IMG/VR virus record: IMGVR_UViG_3300043543_000325
Location: 1-21,254 of that record
From: a virus
Strand: one strand, 5' to 3'
DNA length: 21,254 nt
Below are positions 2,600 to 14,771 of this stretch, in pieces. Each line of letters opens with the position of its first letter. Position 1 is the stretch's first letter. The notes beneath the pieces were generated by a model. It did not search any database and was not told where the DNA came from. It saw only the letters and a list, made by a program, of their open reading frames with translations. Position numbers and translations under genes: made by a program.

Positions 2600-2819
2600 T
2601 ATCGGTCTCCCCAAGGCTGCGGATCTCCATCACGCAGACGCGCGGGATGGTCGTGACGGCGCGCCACTCCTCCTCGCCGATGCGCTCCCCGGCGACCGAG
2701 ATCGCCGCCGCGTCCCGCGTGTCCAGGAGCCACCCCGTGGTCTCCACGGTTACAAGTTTCGGCACCTCGTCCAGGGCGAACGTGGCGTCGAGCCAGGTCA
2801 CCGTGACCAGCTCAGGCAT
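2583..2819 (-). CDS. Conserved-type hypothetical phage protein, beta-rich
   Basis: The 78-residue product overlaps the serine protease stop as ATGA at 2819. It alternates short beta-like segments: 'LVTVTWLDATFALDE', 'LVTVETTGWLLDTRD', 'AAAISVAGERIGEEEWRAV', 'TTIPRVCVMEIRSLGE'. The layout 'V-T-x-x-W-D ... T-x-G-W-L-x(6)-A-x-x-I-S-V ... T-x-I-P-R' resembles a small beta-barrel protein common in phage accessory regions that has no assigned function. It contains no signal, membrane segment or catalytic motif. It sits between the protease and the HAD protein in a coupled string. Confidence 0.65.
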   Translation of the reverse strand: MPELVTVTWLDATFALDEVPKLVTVETTGWLLDTRDAAAISVAGERIGEEEWRAVTTIPRVCVMEIRSLGETDIATQR

Positions 2820-3625
2820 CACTTGTCCTCCTCGGGGTTCTCCTTCCGGTGGAGCTTGTCGGCCTCGAGCAGGCGCTTGCGGGTCTCCGCCTCGCCCTCC
2901 TCGGTGAAGGCCGGGTCGTAGATGAACCGGAACATCTGCTTCTCGAGGAAGTCGTAGACCCGCGTGATCGGGATGGAGTACGACAGGTGCGTCACGGCGC
3001 TCGAGCCGAGGAAGCCGGTCACCGCCACGCGAGAGGGAACGCCGATGAACTCCCGGGTCTCTGCGAGGAACGTGCCGCCGCCGCTGTTCCCGTAGATCGA
3101 GGGGGCGGTGCAGAGCCAGTACTCCTTGCTGTCGATCTCGCGCCCGAAGACGGAGATGACGCCCTGCGTGAGCACCGGCGGCTCGCCGAGCCCGCAGCCG
3201 ACGGTGATGATGGGCTCGCCCACGAGCAGGCGGGACTCCTCCCCTCGAGGGAACATCTTCGCCACCGCCGGCACCGGGTCGGTTCCCCGGAGCTTCAGCA
3301 GCGCCAGGTCCTCGTCCTTGTCGTAGGCGACGATCTCTGCCTCGATGGCGTTCGCCCCGACCACCCGGGAGCTCCAGCGGTAGTTGAAGAAGTGAACCTC
3401 CACGAGGTCGCGCTCGTCCCGCTTGACGTTCTTCTGCAGGACCGGGTCCCACTTCTCCACCACGCGCACCGCGTCGTCGATGACGTGCTGGTTGGTGAGC
3501 ACGTAGGTCGAGACCTGCCCCGGCTCGCCCTGCGAGTAGATGACGGTGCCGGAGCCCCCGGCGCGCTTGGTGCGCACGCGCACGCAGGCCTTCAGCACCT
3601 CCGAGTGCAGCTGCTCGAGGTTCAT
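2819..3625 (-). CDS. Trypsin-like (HtrA/DegP-type) serine protease, no signal peptide
   Basis: The 268-residue protein shows the chymotrypsin-fold triad in order: His47 in 'VLTNQHVID', Asp106 in 'DKDEDLALLKL' and Ser181 in 'YGNSGGGTF'. These surroundings are those of HtrA/DegP S1C proteases ('TN.HV', 'D.DLALLK', 'GNSGG'). It has no PDZ domain and no signal peptide, so it should act in the cytoplasm or in the particle. The C-terminal 45 residues are a charged helix ('TEEGEAETRKRLLEADK'). The ATG at 3625 has GGGAGG 6 bases upstream. Neighbours are two small unknown genes in a coupled accessory cluster after the lysis genes. The protease call is firm; the substrate (host factor, phage protein or defence protein) is unknown. 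Confidence 0.88.
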   Translation of the reverse strand: MNLEQLHSEVLKACVRVRTKRAGGSGTVIYSQGEPGQVSTYVLTNQHVIDDAVRVVEKWDPVLQKNVKRDERDLVEVHFFNYRWSSRVVGANAIEAEIVAYDKDEDLALLKLRGTDPVPAVAKMFPRGEESRLLVGEPIITVGCGLGEPPVLTQGVISVFGREIDSKEYWLCTAPSIYGNSGGGTFLAETREFIGVPSRVAVTGFLGSSAVTHLSYSIPITRVYDFLEKQMFRFIYDPAFTEEGEAETRKRLLEADKLHRKENPEEDK

Positions 3626-4516: not shown

Positions 4517-4957
4517 TCAGTACCCCCGGTAGTAGGGTCGGAGCTTGGCGACCGTCCAGTCGGGATGCTCCATCCAGGTCCGCAGCACGAGACCCGGACC
4601 ACGGTCGTCGCGAGCGAGCAGCTTGCTGAGGCCGCCGTAGCCGCCGTAGCCCTGGAGCTCCGAGCGGATGTAGCGGATGGCGACCTCGACTGCCTGCACG
4701 GGGTCCGTGTAGCTGATGCGCCCGATGAACCCGCTCCGCTGCGCCGATGCGTACATCCCCTCGGCGAGCTGCATCATGCCCCGGCAGCCCGGGCAGACGG
4801 TGGAGACGACGTAGGGATCCCAGTCGGACTCGTAGCGTGCGATGACCTCCAGCGGCACCTGCCACTTGGCCGGTACGCCGACGCGCTTGCGCGCACGCTC
4901 GACGACCCACCGACCGAGCGGCGGGGTTCCGACGAAGTGCTCGGCCGGGTAGTCCAT
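4517..4957 (-). CDS. Lytic transglycosylase (SLT/goose-lysozyme fold)
   Basis: The 146-residue protein carries the SLT hallmarks: catalytic Glu43 in 'IARYESDWDP', then 'GCRGMMQLAEGMY' (the G-x-MQL motif, residues 57-69), a repeated-substrate helix 'DPVQAVEVAIRYIRSE', and 'LRPYYRGY' at the end. These enzymes cleave the MurNAc-GlcNAc bond of peptidoglycan to give anhydro-muropeptides. It has no signal peptide, so it needs a holin or acts from the tail. The ATG at 4957 follows GGAG with 7 bases between. A CPGC cysteine pair (55-58) sits just before the GMMQL motif, unusual for the family. It is next to a second peptidoglycan hydrolase and two membrane proteins, so a lysis role is most likely. 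Confidence 0.85.
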   Translation of the reverse strand: MDYPAEHFVGTPPLGRWVVERARKRVGVPAKWQVPLEVIARYESDWDPYVVSTVCPGCRGMMQLAEGMYASAQRSGFIGRISYTDPVQAVEVAIRYIRSELQGYGGYGGLSKLLARDDRGPGLVLRTWMEHPDWTVAKLRPYYRGY

Positions 4958-4966
4958 CTCAGCTCC

Positions 4967-5722
4967 TCACGACGCGCAGGGCGGGATGCCGGTCTTCAGC
5001 GGGTATCCCGAGACGTGGATGTGGTTGGTGTGCGGATTGACGCCGCCGTAAGCACGCCAGCCACGGTCCCTCGTCCAGATGCGGCCGTCGTAGATGACCT
5101 CTGCAACGTCGAGCGGCACGGCGTTGGCCACGAGGAAGTCCGCGATCTCGCGCATGACGGCTGCGGAATCGTGGTGGATGTCCCAGGCGTTGCACCATGC
5201 GTGCTGGCTCCAGGTCGACGAGCCGGCAACGCGCTTGCAGTTGCAGATGCCCCAGTTCTCGACGCCGCGCCACCTCGAGACGACCGTGCAGTAGATGCGG
5301 TCGATGGCGTCCGTGCCCTGGGTGTCCTGGGTGCAGGACAGGTCGATCTCGACCTTGCGCAGCAGCCAGGTCGCGCCGTCGTCAGCGCCGATGCGGTAGC
5401 GCGTCCCCACCGGCACCTTGGGCAGCACGACGCGGAGCCTGTCGATGATCTCGTCGAGCGTGCGAGGCGGACCCCACTCTCCGTCGTCACGCTTGAGCCG
5501 GTAGGGAGCCGGATGCTTCCCGACCCGCTTGCGCACCAGCGCCAGGAGGTCCGCCTTCCTTAGCGGCTTGGACCACTCTCCGCTAGGCAGCCTGCGGAGG
5601 CGGTAACGCACCTGGATGACCGACGGCGCGCGCGTGAGCAGCCTCGAGAGCATGGCTGCGCCCGCGGCCGTCGCGGCCGCACCGACCAGGAACCTGCGGC
5701 GAGTCAGCCTGATCATCGACAC
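4967..5722 (-). CDS. M15/ARB_07466-like peptidoglycan hydrolase with Tat signal
   Basis: The 251-residue protein starts with a twin-arginine signal: 'LTRRRFLVGAAATAAGAA' matches S/T-R-R-x-F-L followed by a hydrophobic helix. Residues 40-71 and 74-106 look like two copies of one unit ('YRLRRLPSGEW' and 'YRLKRDDGEW', each followed by a helix). The C-terminal domain has a zinc-site pattern, 'SQHAWCNAWDI' (His174, Asp181) and 'NPHTNHIHVSG' (His236), as in D-Ala-D-Ala carboxypeptidase-like and ARB_07466-type domains. It also has eight cysteines, mostly in this domain, suggesting disulfides after export. GTG 5722 has GGAGG 5 bases upstream; ATG 5716 is the alternative. It likely cuts cell-wall peptides outside the membrane. 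The domain call is good; its use in lysis versus entry is inferred. Confidence 0.8.
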   Translation of the reverse strand: MSMIRLTRRRFLVGAAATAAGAAMLSRLLTRAPSVIQVRYRLRRLPSGEWSKPLRKADLLALVRKRVGKHPAPYRLKRDDGEWGPPRTLDEIIDRLRVVLPKVPVGTRYRIGADDGATWLLRKVEIDLSCTQDTQGTDAIDRIYCTVVSRWRGVENWGICNCKRVAGSSTWSQHAWCNAWDIHHDSAAVMREIADFLVANAVPLDVAEVIYDGRIWTRDRGWRAYGGVNPHTNHIHVSGYPLKTGIPPCAS

Positions 5723-9250: not shown

Positions 9251-11488
9251 CTACCGCTCCCAGACGTAGGCGATCTTCTGCTGCTCGGTGAAGCGGCGGC
9301 GATCGACGATGAGGCGGACATCGACTCGGCGCGGAGCGACCTCGCGGGTCGTCTCCCGCACCTCCCGCAGGCGCGACAGAGGGATGACGGCCTCCGGGCC
9401 AGCCTCGCCGATGAGGGCGAAGGTCGGTCGGGTGACCACTCCTCCGTGCTGCAGCTGCACGCCGTGTCCACCTGCGCCGGCGGCGAGGGCGCTCTTCTGG
9501 ATCTCGACCGAGATGGTCATGGTCTTGTGGCTCGGCAGCGCGTTGACCGCCTGGCCGACCCCCCGGATGGCCTGCTCGGTGCGCTTCGCCTGCCTCTGAG
9601 CTTCCTTGAAGGCGCGGACGATCTCGCGGAAGCGCTGGTCGCTCGCGTTCGCCAGCTCCTGGAGGATGCTCGCGCCGTCGAGACCCATGTCGGCGATTTG
9701 CTGCGCGAGCGCGTCCGGGAGGCCACGCTTGATGACCGTTTCCCAGTTCTCGCGATAGTTCGCCAGGGCCTCGGCTTGCTTCCTGAAAGACCTGATGATC
9801 TCTCGGGCCGTGACCTTCCCGTCCTCCACCAGGTCAGCGAAGACACCGGAGACATCGCGCAGGTCCTCACCCACGCTCTTGGCCCAGTCCTTGAACTCGG
9901 CCTTGGTCATGCCAGCGAAGACCTTGATCTGCTTGCGCGTCTTGCCGACCTGCGAGGCCAGCTCCTGGCTCTTCTCGATGACCTTGTCGGTCGCTCCCGT
10001 CATCGTGCGCGCGGCGGCCTCCCAGCGGGCTGCCATGTTCTCGTTGGCCTGCGCCAGCTCCGCGGCCCGCTGGGCCGCCTCCTGGTGCCGGCGCGCGAGC
10101 TCGAACGCTGCGCTCACGCCCGACCGCCCCGCCGACGGCATCCGATGCAGGGTCTCCTCGGTGACGCCGAGCTGGTCGGCAAGCTCGTTCGCCTTGGAGC
10201 CCGCGTAGACGAACATCGCGGCGAGACCGATGACCGAAAGGCGCGTGGCGACGGATGCCTTGGCGACCGTGGAGATGCCGGCTGCGAGGCTCGTCAGCTT
10301 GGCGGCGGCAGCCTTGAGGCCGACGGACTCGAGACCGAGGGCGACCGAGAACAGCCCCTCCGCGATCGCGTGCAGCAGCCCCGGGAGGAACTTCAGGGCC
10401 TGCCAGCCGAGGAGCGCGGTGAGAACGAGCTCCGCGTTGTTGGCGACCTTCTCGAGGACGTCCGCCAGCGGCGGTAGCACCTTGCTCGCCAGCTCCTGGG
10501 CAGCCGTTCGGAGCTGCTGGAGGGCACGCGCCACGCGGAAGCTCGCGGTCTGCTCCATCGTGCGGAAAGCCTCATCCAGGCTCCCGGACGAGCGGGTGAC
10601 GCGCTCGAAGATGCCGTTGACCTTCTCCGCTTCCTGGACCGTGAGACCGAACGCGCCGGTCAGGGCCCGGACGTTCGGCACGATCCTCTTCATGAGGTCG
10701 ATGTTGCCGCCGGTGCGCTCCTCGAGCAGCCGCAGAGCGGCAAGCAGACCTTGCTCGGAGAGCACGCGCCGCATCTCGTCCGCCGAGATGCCGACCTCGG
10801 TCAGGGTCTCGGCCGCCTGGCTGCCGGGGGCCACGAGAGCCTGCAGGAGGCCGCGCATGGCCGTGACGCCCTCGTTGACGTCGAGGCCGATGTTGGACAG
10901 GGCGGCGAGCGAGGCGGTCACCTCGTCGAACCCGACCTGAGCCTGGCTCGCGATGGGCAGGATGCGGCCGAGCGCGTCGGCGAAGTCGGCAGGCTCGGCG
11001 GAGCCCTCGCGGACGGCGGCGACGAGCGTATCGGTGGCCTGCTTGGCCGTGAGCCCCGCATCCGCGTAGGCGTTGAGCGCGTTCGCGACGACCTTGGCGA
11101 TGTCCTCCGTCGCACCGAGCCCGACCGCTGCAGCCTTCGCCGACGCCTCCAGGGCCTCGACGGCCTGCCGGGCGCTGAGGCCCGAGGAGGAGAGGAAGAA
11201 CATCGCGTTGGCGAGCTCGGCTGGCGCACGGGCGGTCTCGCCCGAGAGCTTGAGCACCTGCTCGCGGAAGCCAGCGATCTCCTTCGCGCTCGCGTTCGAG
11301 ATGGCGTCGATGCGGGCGAAGGCCTGGTCGAACTGCAGGGCCGAGCGCAGCGCGTCGGCAGCCATGAGGCCGAACGACAGGCCGACGGCACGCTGAACCC
11401 CCTGCAGGATGCCCTGCAGGCGACGAGCCGAGGCCTGGAACTCGCGTACATCCCCGACGAAGCGTACGACTACGGTTCCGCCTGCCAT
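9251..11488 (-). CDS. Tape measure protein
   Basis: The 745-residue protein is the longest gene and lies between the frameshifted chaperone and the hub. The N-terminal 350 residues match the TP901-type tape-measure core: 'ALQFDQAFARIDAISNAS', 'LSGETARAPAELANAMFFLS', 'AADALRS' and repeated Ala/Leu-rich helices. Hydrophobic segments lie at about 385-425 and 440-460 ('LSVIGLAAMFVYAGS'). Helical heptads follow, and the end has the typical 'GGVVTRPTFALIGEAGPEAV' sequence. Tape measures set tail length and assist DNA entry; at about 1.5 angstroms per residue this length suggests a tail of roughly 110 nm. ATG 11488 follows TAG directly, with GAGGGG just upstream. Confidence 0.93.
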   Translation of the reverse strand: MAGGTVVVRFVGDVREFQASARRLQGILQGVQRAVGLSFGLMAADALRSALQFDQAFARIDAISNASAKEIAGFREQVLKLSGETARAPAELANAMFFLSSSGLSARQAVEALEASAKAAAVGLGATEDIAKVVANALNAYADAGLTAKQATDTLVAAVREGSAEPADFADALGRILPIASQAQVGFDEVTASLAALSNIGLDVNEGVTAMRGLLQALVAPGSQAAETLTEVGISADEMRRVLSEQGLLAALRLLEERTGGNIDLMKRIVPNVRALTGAFGLTVQEAEKVNGIFERVTRSSGSLDEAFRTMEQTASFRVARALQQLRTAAQELASKVLPPLADVLEKVANNAELVLTALLGWQALKFLPGLLHAIAEGLFSVALGLESVGLKAAAAKLTSLAAGISTVAKASVATRLSVIGLAAMFVYAGSKANELADQLGVTEETLHRMPSAGRSGVSAAFELARRHQEAAQRAAELAQANENMAARWEAAARTMTGATDKVIEKSQELASQVGKTRKQIKVFAGMTKAEFKDWAKSVGEDLRDVSGVFADLVEDGKVTAREIIRSFRKQAEALANYRENWETVIKRGLPDALAQQIADMGLDGASILQELANASDQRFREIVRAFKEAQRQAKRTEQAIRGVGQAVNALPSHKTMTISVEIQKSALAAGAGGHGVQLQHGGVVTRPTFALIGEAGPEAVIPLSRLREVRETTREVAPRRVDVRLIVDRRRFTEQQKIAYVWER

Positions 11489-11886
11489 CTAACCCCTCTG
11501 AGCCTCGTAGTAGGCGCGCATGTAGCGCGCGAGCGCGTCGATCTCCCACAGCCGCAGCCGGCGCAGCTCGGAGAGCGACAATCCGTAGAAGTGCATGAGC
11601 GGGGCCAGCGCCTCTACGCGCCGGCCCCGGTAGGGTTTGGCTCCTGCGCGGGACGCAGGGCCGTGAGCTTGAGCTTGCGGACGTCCTCGATGGTCACGTC
11701 CGGGTACGAGCGCCGCAGCACGAGGTACGCGAGCGCGGTGAGCGCCTTGGGCCGCGCACGCCCGGCCGCGATGTCCTCGAGCGCGGTCTCGCCGCCGAGC
11801 TCGGCCAGCTCCTCCAGCTCACCGAACGTCATCTCCTCGAGGACGCTCGTGCCGATCTCGACGCTGACTCCATCGGGCAGGGACAT
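11489..11886 (-). CDS. Tail assembly chaperone, -1 frameshift fusion (gpGT-like)
   Basis: Reading starts at ATG 11886 and shifts by -1 at the heptamer A AAC CCT (11638-11632), giving 84 zero-frame residues plus 48 from the -1 frame, 132 in all. The -1 extension is 'PYRGRRVEALAPLMHFYGLS' then 'LSELRRLRLWEIDALARYMR' and ends immediately before the tape measure ATG. It has no ribosome site or plausible start of its own. In lambda, HK97 and most siphophages the gpG and gpGT products made by such a shift chaperone the tape measure during tail assembly. Location, slippery heptamer, downstream stem-loop and a coding -1 frame all agree. The shift itself is inferred. Confidence 0.82.
11600..11629 (-). 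promoter_or_regulatory. Frameshift-stimulating stem-loop
   Basis: On the minus-strand RNA, CGGGGCCGGCGC pairs with GCGCUGGCCCCG over 12 base pairs (one G-U) around the 6-base loop GUAGAG. It begins 2 bases after the slippery heptamer, closer than the usual 5-9, so the lowest pairs may be open when the ribosome is on the heptamer. The zero-frame stop is in the loop. All of this is read directly from the sequence; the stimulating role is inferred. Confidence 0.75.
11614..11886 (-). CDS. Tail assembly chaperone, unshifted product (gpG-like)
   Basis: The zero-frame product is 90 residues, starting 'MSLPDGVSVEIGTSVLEEMT' and continuing with 'FGELEELAELGGETALEDIA' and 'LTALAYLVLRRSYPDVTIED'. A small beta N-terminus followed by acidic helices is usual for gpG-like chaperones. 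ATG 11886 has GGAGG about 5-6 bases upstream; GTG 11892 overlaps that ribosome site and is rejected. The stop TAG at 11616-11614 falls in the loop of the frameshift stem-loop. It precedes the tape measure as expected. Confidence 0.85.
   Translation of the reverse strand: MSLPDGVSVEIGTSVLEEMTFGELEELAELGGETALEDIAAGRARPKALTALAYLVLRRSYPDVTIEDVRKLKLTALRPAQEPNPTGAGA
11632..11638 (-). promoter_or_regulatory. -1 programmed frameshift slippery heptamer AAACCCT
   Basis: Read in the zero frame as A AAC CCT, this fits X XXY YYZ, so both tRNAs can re-pair with AAA and CCC after a -1 slip. It lies six sense codons before the zero-frame stop and leads into a 48-codon extension ending at the tape measure start. 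Confidence 0.8.
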
Positions 11887-11909
11887 GGACACCTCCTGTG
11901 CGTGGACGT

Positions 11910-11932: not shown

Positions 11933-12346
11933 TCAGAACCGGCGGGCCTGGAGCCCGGCGCGGGCGGCCGCCTCGAACAGCGCGTTCAGGTAGTCCTCCT
12001 GCGCGCGCGGGATCTCGCGAGCGGCGGCCTGCCAGATGTAGGGGCGTGGGATGTCGCGCTTCGGCCGCTGGATGCGACCCCACGGCTGCACCGGGGGATG
12101 GTGTCGCCAGGAGCCGCCGGCCATGATGCGGAGCACGTTGCGGCTCCCCGACGGACGCGGCACCGCGCCAGCGCCGGAGCCGACGTTCAGCGGCTTCGGC
12201 ATGGCGGCGTTGATGATGCGCTGCCCGATGGCGCGGTTCCGCTCCTGGATGCCCTTGATGAGGGCAGGGTCGATGGCGGCGATGGCCCGCGTGAGCTCCC
12301 GGACGCCCTCGAGCTTGACGGCGAACGGAGCGGTGCGAGCGCCCAT
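11933..12346 (-). CDS. HK97 gp10-like neck/tail completion protein
   Basis: The 137-residue protein begins 'MGARTAPFAVKLEGVRELTR' and 'AIAAIDPALIKGIQERNRAI', the pattern of HK97 gp10/Gp10-like proteins (a beta strand, then a helix with 'E-G-x-x-E-L-x-R-A-L'). The middle holds 'PLNVGSGAGAVPRPSGSRN' and 'GSWRHHPPVQPWGRI', and the end is helical. In HK97-type phages this protein joins head and tail and usually lies before the tail tube gene; here it lies just after it, coupled by ATGA. The family call is moderate, from the N-terminal pattern and basic character. Confidence 0.62.
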   Translation of the reverse strand: MGARTAPFAVKLEGVRELTRAIAAIDPALIKGIQERNRAIGQRIINAAMPKPLNVGSGAGAVPRPSGSRNVLRIMAGGSWRHHPPVQPWGRIQRPKRDIPRPYIWQAAAREIPRAQEDYLNALFEAAARAGLQARRF

Positions 12347-13347
12347 CAGGAGCCGTTGTAGCCGGTCGTGTTGACGCCGTTCTTGACGACGGCCGTGATG
12401 GCGTTGCCGGACGTCGGTGAGATCACCCGACCCTCGAGCTCGAGCTCGACAGGGCCACCGTCCGGGGAGGCCTCCGGGTAGCGGGCCGTGAACGCCACCC
12501 GCGGCGCGGTGATGTCGAGGCTGCGCTCCGGCGTCGCCTGGATCTGGAACTTCAGGCGGAACGAGCCGTACACCGGCGTGCTCGAGACGGCTGTGCCGGA
12601 GCCGGAGCCGGTGATGATCTTGCGCCAGAGCGTGGTGTCGGCCGGCGGGATGACGCGCACGCGGAACGTGATGTCCTGCGCGCCGGGCCAGACGTCATCG
12701 GGCTCGAGCGACTTGGACAGCTCCACCGGGATGAGGTTGTTGGCGATGGTCAGCTCGCCCCCCACCACGTCGGCGGCCGCCGGCGTGGAGCCAGCCGTCT
12801 CCACCTCGAACGTGCCGCCCGCCGGGAAGAACGCCTGGTCCTTGGACTCGTCGTTGGTGATGGTGAACGAGCTCTGGTAGAAGCTCGCCACGGTCCCCAG
12901 CATCCGGATGCGGGCGCGCAGCAGCTCACGGCTCTCCCAGGAGAGCGCCAGCTCGTCGACCTTGCAGTCGCGCACCTTGTGGTACTCGGTGTCGAGCCGC
13001 CCGAACGCCGTCAGGTACGGCAGGTTCACCGCCGGCGTGATCGTGTGCGTGAAGGGGTCGCTCGAGCCGGTGGAAGCGATGGCGCCCAGCGCGCCGAACA
13101 GGAGCAGCGGCACGGACCGCGGCCAGACCAGCGACTCGCACTCGACCCGGTGCTGGTAGCCCTTGAGCTCCACCGAGGGCGGCAGCCGGTCGGCGATGGT
13201 GAGCGGCGTGGGCTCCTGCGTCATCTCGGTCGAGATGACGGCACCGGACGTGAGCCCGAACCCGTACTTCGCCGTCGTCGCCAGCGTCCCCTTGCCCGAG
13301 GTCTGGCGGTCGAAGGCGACCTGCGCGATCTTACGGTTGAGCGGCAT
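12346..13347 (-). CDS. Major tail tube protein
   Basis: The 333-residue, Thr/Ser/Val-rich protein is almost all beta strand. It starts 'MPLNRKIAQVAFDRQTSGKG' and has the tube-like segments 'FTHTITPAVNLPYLTAFGRL', 'RVECESLVWPRSVPLLLFGA' and 'VDELALSWESRELLRARIRM', seen in long-form siphovirus tube proteins. It stacks as rings to form the tail. Its position before the chaperone and tape measure agrees. ATG 13347 follows GGAGGAGGAA and overlaps the small upstream gene by 17 bases. The C-terminal 90 residues ('VAFTARYPEASPDGGPVELE') may be a surface domain. At 333 residues it is longer than compact tube proteins. Confidence 0.78.
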   Translation of the reverse strand: MPLNRKIAQVAFDRQTSGKGTLATTAKYGFGLTSGAVISTEMTQEPTPLTIADRLPPSVELKGYQHRVECESLVWPRSVPLLLFGALGAIASTGSSDPFTHTITPAVNLPYLTAFGRLDTEYHKVRDCKVDELALSWESRELLRARIRMLGTVASFYQSSFTITNDESKDQAFFPAGGTFEVETAGSTPAAADVVGGELTIANNLIPVELSKSLEPDDVWPGAQDITFRVRVIPPADTTLWRKIITGSGSGTAVSSTPVYGSFRLKFQIQATPERSLDITAPRVAFTARYPEASPDGGPVELELEGRVISPTSGNAITAVVKNGVNTTGYNGS

Positions 13348-14739: not shown

Positions 14740-14771
14740 GATGGGGGAGGGGCATCCGCCCCTCCCCCATC
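14740..14771 (-). terminator. Perfect 14-bp hairpin after the major capsid gene
   Basis: GATGGGGGAGGGGC (arm) and GCCCCTCCCCCATC (arm) are exact inverted repeats separated by 4 bases. The hairpin starts 7 bases after the capsid TAG and ends 19 bases before the next ATG. The downstream sequence on the transcript has no U-run, so it is not a standard intrinsic terminator. It may be an attenuator or an RNA-stability element setting capsid over connector levels. Confidence 0.6.

Follow-up and report, generated by a model that had tools for sequence, protein, structure and literature searches.

A predicted programmed -1 frameshift like that of phiC31 gp41/gp42, but with a different slip site and a strong hairpin, in the tail chaperone gene of an uncultured virus

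Does this virus join the two overlapping reading frames in front of its tape measure gene by ribosomal slippage? The -1 frameshift of lambda-type tail chaperones is a well-known mechanism, and a preliminary description of the locus had proposed a shift of this gpG/gpGT type. The window, which is the whole stretch of DNA analysed here, is the 21,254-bp contig of IMG/VR virus record IMGVR_UViG_3300043543_000325. An HK97-like module of head and tail genes lies on its minus strand and is composed of HNH, terminase, portal, protease, capsid, adaptor, tail tube, G and tape measure genes. The tail tube gene (12346..13347, minus strand; Pfam PF18906, E 1e-11) is the upstream marker of the conserved gene order. 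Between the tube and G lies a small gene (11933..12346, minus strand), which is syntenic with phiC31 gp40 by its position and size. Its product has 137 aa, compared with 143 aa for the gene at the same position in phiC31-family records, and a family search with this product gave no match. The tape measure gene was identified at 9251..11488 on the minus strand (PHROG 991, E 3.3e-46; Pfam PF10145), and the G/T gene pair is placed between the tail tube and tape measure genes. The order of tube, small gene, G/GT and tape measure is thus the same as in phiC31. Three other genes of the window were recorded. A trypsin-like protease gene (2819-3625, minus strand; Pfam PF13365, E 6e-17) is located outside the head module. 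The protein encoded at 4967-5722 (minus strand) has an N-terminal RRRFLVGAAATAAGAAML stretch resembling a twin-arginine signal, and its gene is adjoined by a transglycosylase-like gene (4517-4957; Pfam SLT); the product of 4967-5722 is perhaps an exported lysis protein.

The zero-frame tail assembly chaperone gene G, of the gpG type, is an open frame at 11614..11886 on the minus strand and encodes a 90-aa homologue of phiC31 gp41. It starts with ATG at 11886, with AGGAGG upstream, and GTG at 11892 is an alternative in-frame start. The protein matched PHROG 17335, 'tail protein', with an E value of 1.3e-7. The slippery heptamer A_AAC_CCT (11632..11638, minus strand) can be read directly near the end of the gene. 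It stands in the X_XXY_YYZ register, CCA AAC CCT ACC, so the frame assigned to it in the preliminary description was right. Around the site, the zero frame reads CAG GAG CCA AAC CCT ACC GGG GCC GGC GCG TAG. The X_XXY_YYZ pattern of any kind was found at 7 of the 5337 in-frame positions of the window's genes, and AAACCC at only one, which is the heptamer itself. None of the 156 lysine codons in these genes is AAA, and CCT makes up 7% of the proline codons. The terminating TAG (11614..11616, minus strand) follows five codons after CCT, and the same spacing was found in 12 relatives.

The -1 frame extension, which is the T part of gpGT and a homologue of the gp42 extension, occupies 11489..11632 on the minus strand and was recognised by a T profile and by its GC content at the third codon position. 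It runs for 47 codons after CCT to a TAG (11491-11489), and the tape measure ATG follows at 11488; the extension was already described as ending exactly there, and this was borne out. The GC contents at the three codon positions are 0.70/0.47/0.91 for the extension versus 0.68/0.49/0.93 for the genes, which is coding-like. The accompanying claim that the extension lacks its own start needs a correction, because the -1 frame contains an ATG at 11596. However, this ATG is not preceded by a Shine-Dalgarno sequence and is CTG in a close relative, L002 (IMGVR_UViG_3300045922_000740). The -1 frame is open as far as the tape measure gene, and no convincing start codon lies in it.

Homology to the phiC31 system was found for both parts. 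A profile of the phiC31-family G proteins matched the window G with an E value of 1e-12, and the L002 G protein found the tail chaperones of phiC31-group Streptomyces phages (Shawty, E 1e-4). The phiC31-family T profile placed the window's -1 extension at the top of 357 sequences (E 1.7e-5), and the ORF that holds this extension was recovered again, unprompted, among a six-frame background. In a Foldseek search with a G fold model built from two sequences, the top viral match was phiC31 gp42 (probability 1.00), with a weak E value of 0.03; nothing was found with this model in the PDB. In GenBank, phiC31 gp42 is annotated with 'ribosomal slippage', and the phiC31 -1 ORF ends exactly at the annotated end of gp42. 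All 11 phiC31-family phages inspected have the site GAC CCT ACC, i.e. G_GAC_CCT, at the homologous position, a zero-frame stop five codons after CCT, and an open -1 frame beginning with YR.QR. The frame offset and the slip site are thus conserved in L002 and these 11 phages. Across all 13 phages, the window included, CCT ACC is invariant and the preceding codon is GAC or AAC.

The likeness to gp41/gp42 of phiC31 and its relatives (Lomovskayavirus, Vashvirus, Tigunavirus and related Streptomyces phages) therefore covers the homologous G and T, the gene order, the -1 direction, the slip at CCT/ACC and the position of the zero-frame stop. There are also differences. The P-site codon is AAC in the window and GAC in the phiC31 family, so that the window heptamer fits X_XXY_YYZ: the window clade has the full A_AA.C_CC.U, whereas the phiC31-group G_GAC_CCT fits only the C_CC.U tetramer. 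The T part has 47 codons in the window versus 69 in phiC31, and its stop lies directly before the tape measure start in the window but about 10 nt away in phiC31. If G_GAC_CCT is taken as the mark of the family, a definition drawn from the 11 members inspected rather than from the literature, the window and L002 do not carry it; they have A_AAC_CCT and share CCT/ACC. By its sequence, the window is best filed as a homologue of gp41/gp42 with a changed P-site codon, and not as a plain phiC31-family member.

The heptamer is followed by a 12-bp hairpin with a 6-nt loop (11600..11629, minus strand), the presumed stimulator. Its 5' arm spans 11629-11618, the loop GTAGAG 11617-11612 and the 3' arm 11611-11600. 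One of the 12 pairs is G-U, and the folding energy of the 40 nt after the heptamer is -29.4 kcal/mol. The 5' arm begins after a spacer of only 2 nt (AC), and the zero-frame TAG lies within the loop, at 11616-11614; both features had been reported from the letters and are present. When the -1 frame was recoded synonymously 5000 times, 4 of the variants folded as stably; of 300 dinucleotide shuffles, 0 did. Another hairpin, a perfect 14-bp one (GATGGGGGAGGGGC-GGAT-GCCCCTCCCCCATC, 14740-14771, minus strand), lies directly 3' of the major capsid gene and is not accompanied by a T run; the 111 nt around it have a folding z of -4.3. It is possibly a terminator or an mRNA stabiliser for the capsid message.

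IMG/VR was queried with G, T, the tail tube, the tape measure and the slip site, and L002 was the only close relative found; tape measure and tail tube queries against GTDB genomes gave no close relative. The G of L002 is 66% identical to that of the window. The heptamer is identical in L002, which keeps AAACCCTACC and the TAG in the loop. Its stem has 10 bp (GGCCGGCGCC/GGCGCTGGCC, loop TAGA), the first and third of the window's three basal pairs are broken, and the continuous helix starts 5 nt after the heptamer. The heptamer and stem differ between the two by 2 changes in 38 nt, compared with 71 changes in 255 nt over G (28%), with a binomial probability of about 5e-4; this conservation of the A_AAC_CCT heptamer and the hairpin is a comparison of two sequences, the window and L002. 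In the phiC31 family, a comparably stable proximal hairpin was looked for and none was found, and RNAalifold offered longer-range helices. The expected conservation in relatives thus holds for the heptamer and the 10-bp core stem in L002, but not for the phiC31 family with its G_GAC_CCT and no strong hairpin directly downstream. The anatomy of the site, its homology, its conserved position and the conserved core stem are direct observations.

Two details had been called unusual in the preliminary description, and both mostly lose this status. The spacer is indeed 2 nt in the window, below the commonly examined range of 5-9 nt (PMC5009743), but it is probably short only in appearance because the continuous stem of L002 begins 5 nt after the heptamer, within that range. 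The lowest pairs of the window stem would then be additional and would not stay paired in the ribosome. The stop is indeed in the loop, but its position is common to the whole phiC31 family. The slip position and the zero-frame stop are most simply explained as ancestral, whereas the strong hairpin is a feature of the small clade formed by the window and L002. The hairpin presumably formed around a stop of ancestral position, which is probably why the stop is found in the loop.

Other explanations of the locus were weighed against a frameshift. The two frames could be a single gene broken by a sequencing error or a frameshift mutation, and an IMG/VR contig could in principle contain an indel from assembly or sequencing. 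This explanation is already contradicted by the identical offset at the same place in L002 and 11 isolated phages, and almost no weight is left to it. It is very improbable, although slightly less so, that the T part is a separate protein made by re-initiation or internal initiation, for example at the ATG at 11596. Such an in-frame ATG exists, and T is annotated as a small gene of its own in a few phiC31-family records. However, the features of this ATG given above speak against its use, and the conserved T homology begins at YR right after the slip site, upstream of 11596.

The remaining alternatives concern the parts of the signal. The hairpin might be a by-product of overlapping frames in DNA of 70% GC, or a transcription signal, instead of a stimulator. 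GC-rich dual coding favours pairing, and the window has a few further hairpins of at least this strength elsewhere. On the other hand, very few synonymous recodings folded equally well, no T run follows the hairpin, and its core is kept in L002, so that this explanation is unlikely. Less easily dismissed, but still the less probable weighting, is a slip mainly on C_CC.U (Pro-tRNA from CCU to CCC), as in the phiC31 family, with AAA and the hairpin tuning the rate or being incidental. It shares the main frameshift conclusion and differs only in weighting. The invariance of CCT ACC after either GAC or AAC fits it, as do four loci with another type of G that have GAC CCT eight codons before the stop and an open -1 T frame, and C_CC.U alone shifts in E. 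coli (PMC4066793). Against it, the window clade kept the canonical heptamer and the hairpin beyond what synonymous codon choice would give.

A programmed -1 frameshift of the lambda/HK97 type, of the phiC31 gp41/gp42 kind, from which the window virus would make G and a G-T fusion, is the reading that we prefer, with a probability of roughly 0.93. The gpG/gpGT interpretation of the preliminary description is thus well supported by the homology of G and T to gp41/gp42 and by a slip position shared with 12 other phages, and it agrees with the survival of the heptamer and core stem in L002. We infer the occurrence and rate of the shift, the role of the hairpin and the functions of the proteins as follows. 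Most ribosomes would read AAC CCT ACC GGG GCC GGC GCG TAG and release the 90-aa G protein. While AAC occupies the P site and CCT the A site, the hairpin ahead would resist unwinding. In a minority of ribosomes, both tRNAs would slip back one base, to AAA and CCC; the Pro-tRNA would re-pair cognately on CCC and the Asn-tRNA would keep two of three pairs on AAA. Translation would go on through NP and then YRGRRVEALAPLMHFYG to the TAG beside the tape measure start, giving a G-T fusion of 132 aa. By analogy with lambda, G may coat the tape measure protein and the T part may recruit tail tube subunits.

The slippery heptamer of lambda, GGGAAAG, differs from A_AAC_CCT, and the likeness is drawn without a claim of sequence homology. 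It consists of a zero-frame chaperone and a rare -1 fusion acting between the tube protein and the tape measure (PMC5009743). E. coli dnaX is similar in having a slippery heptamer followed by a simple stem-loop, but has an upstream Shine-Dalgarno stimulator 10 nt before its site (PMC5009743). An upstream stimulator of this kind was considered for the window and rejected, since the AGGAG there stops just 2 nt short of the heptamer and is missing from L002. In E. coli, the shift-prone tetramers include C_CC.U. Three heptamers stay below threshold in that host when a strong stimulator is present, and A_AA.C_CC.U is not one of them; shifting is weaker for CCN motifs than for AAN or UUN, and also where X and Z are of unlike kind, such as A and C (PMC4066793). 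Measured examples of tail chaperones shift at 6-7% (PMC3711429). In lambda the chaperone is required at a ratio of about 30:1 (PMC5009743), and a modest rate would match such a need.

The site was also compared with more distant loci, which had been retrieved through their tape measure genes. All four of them (L006, L007, L008 and L012) have a different-looking G protein upstream of the tape measure gene, with GAC CCT eight codons before its stop, and an open -1 frame resembling the T part. Two other tail-chaperone loci have C_CCA_AAC or A_AAA_AAC near the G stop, and the tape measure genes at the loci studied seldom contain GAC CCT. These counts, from a small sample drawn for another question, suggest a recurring R_RAC_CCT site in tail chaperones. 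We propose tentatively, at somewhat less than even odds, that GC-rich phages repeatedly use R_RAC_CCT as a tail-chaperone slip signal, driven by Pro-tRNA moving from CCU to CCC and missed by the standard motif, and that the window clade is a step from the G_GAC_CCT tetramer form without a strong hairpin to the full heptamer with a hairpin. The primary survey of phage tail frameshifts is that of Xu, Hendrix and Duda (2004, Mol Cell). Among the titles and abstracts covered by the literature search, no paper was recognised that describes AAACCCT or GGACCCT as a phage slip site.

The lambda-type mechanism itself is already known, and what is new is an uncultured lineage with a variant slip site and hairpin. 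This lineage is added to the phiC31-type tail chaperones. In them, the slip site can vary, with GAC or AAC and with a strong hairpin or none, while the position, the direction and the downstream stop are fixed. Judging by the recurrence of GAC CCT in other tail-chaperone loci, a search for frameshifts that admits only X_XXY_YYZ probably overlooks sites in GC-rich phages.
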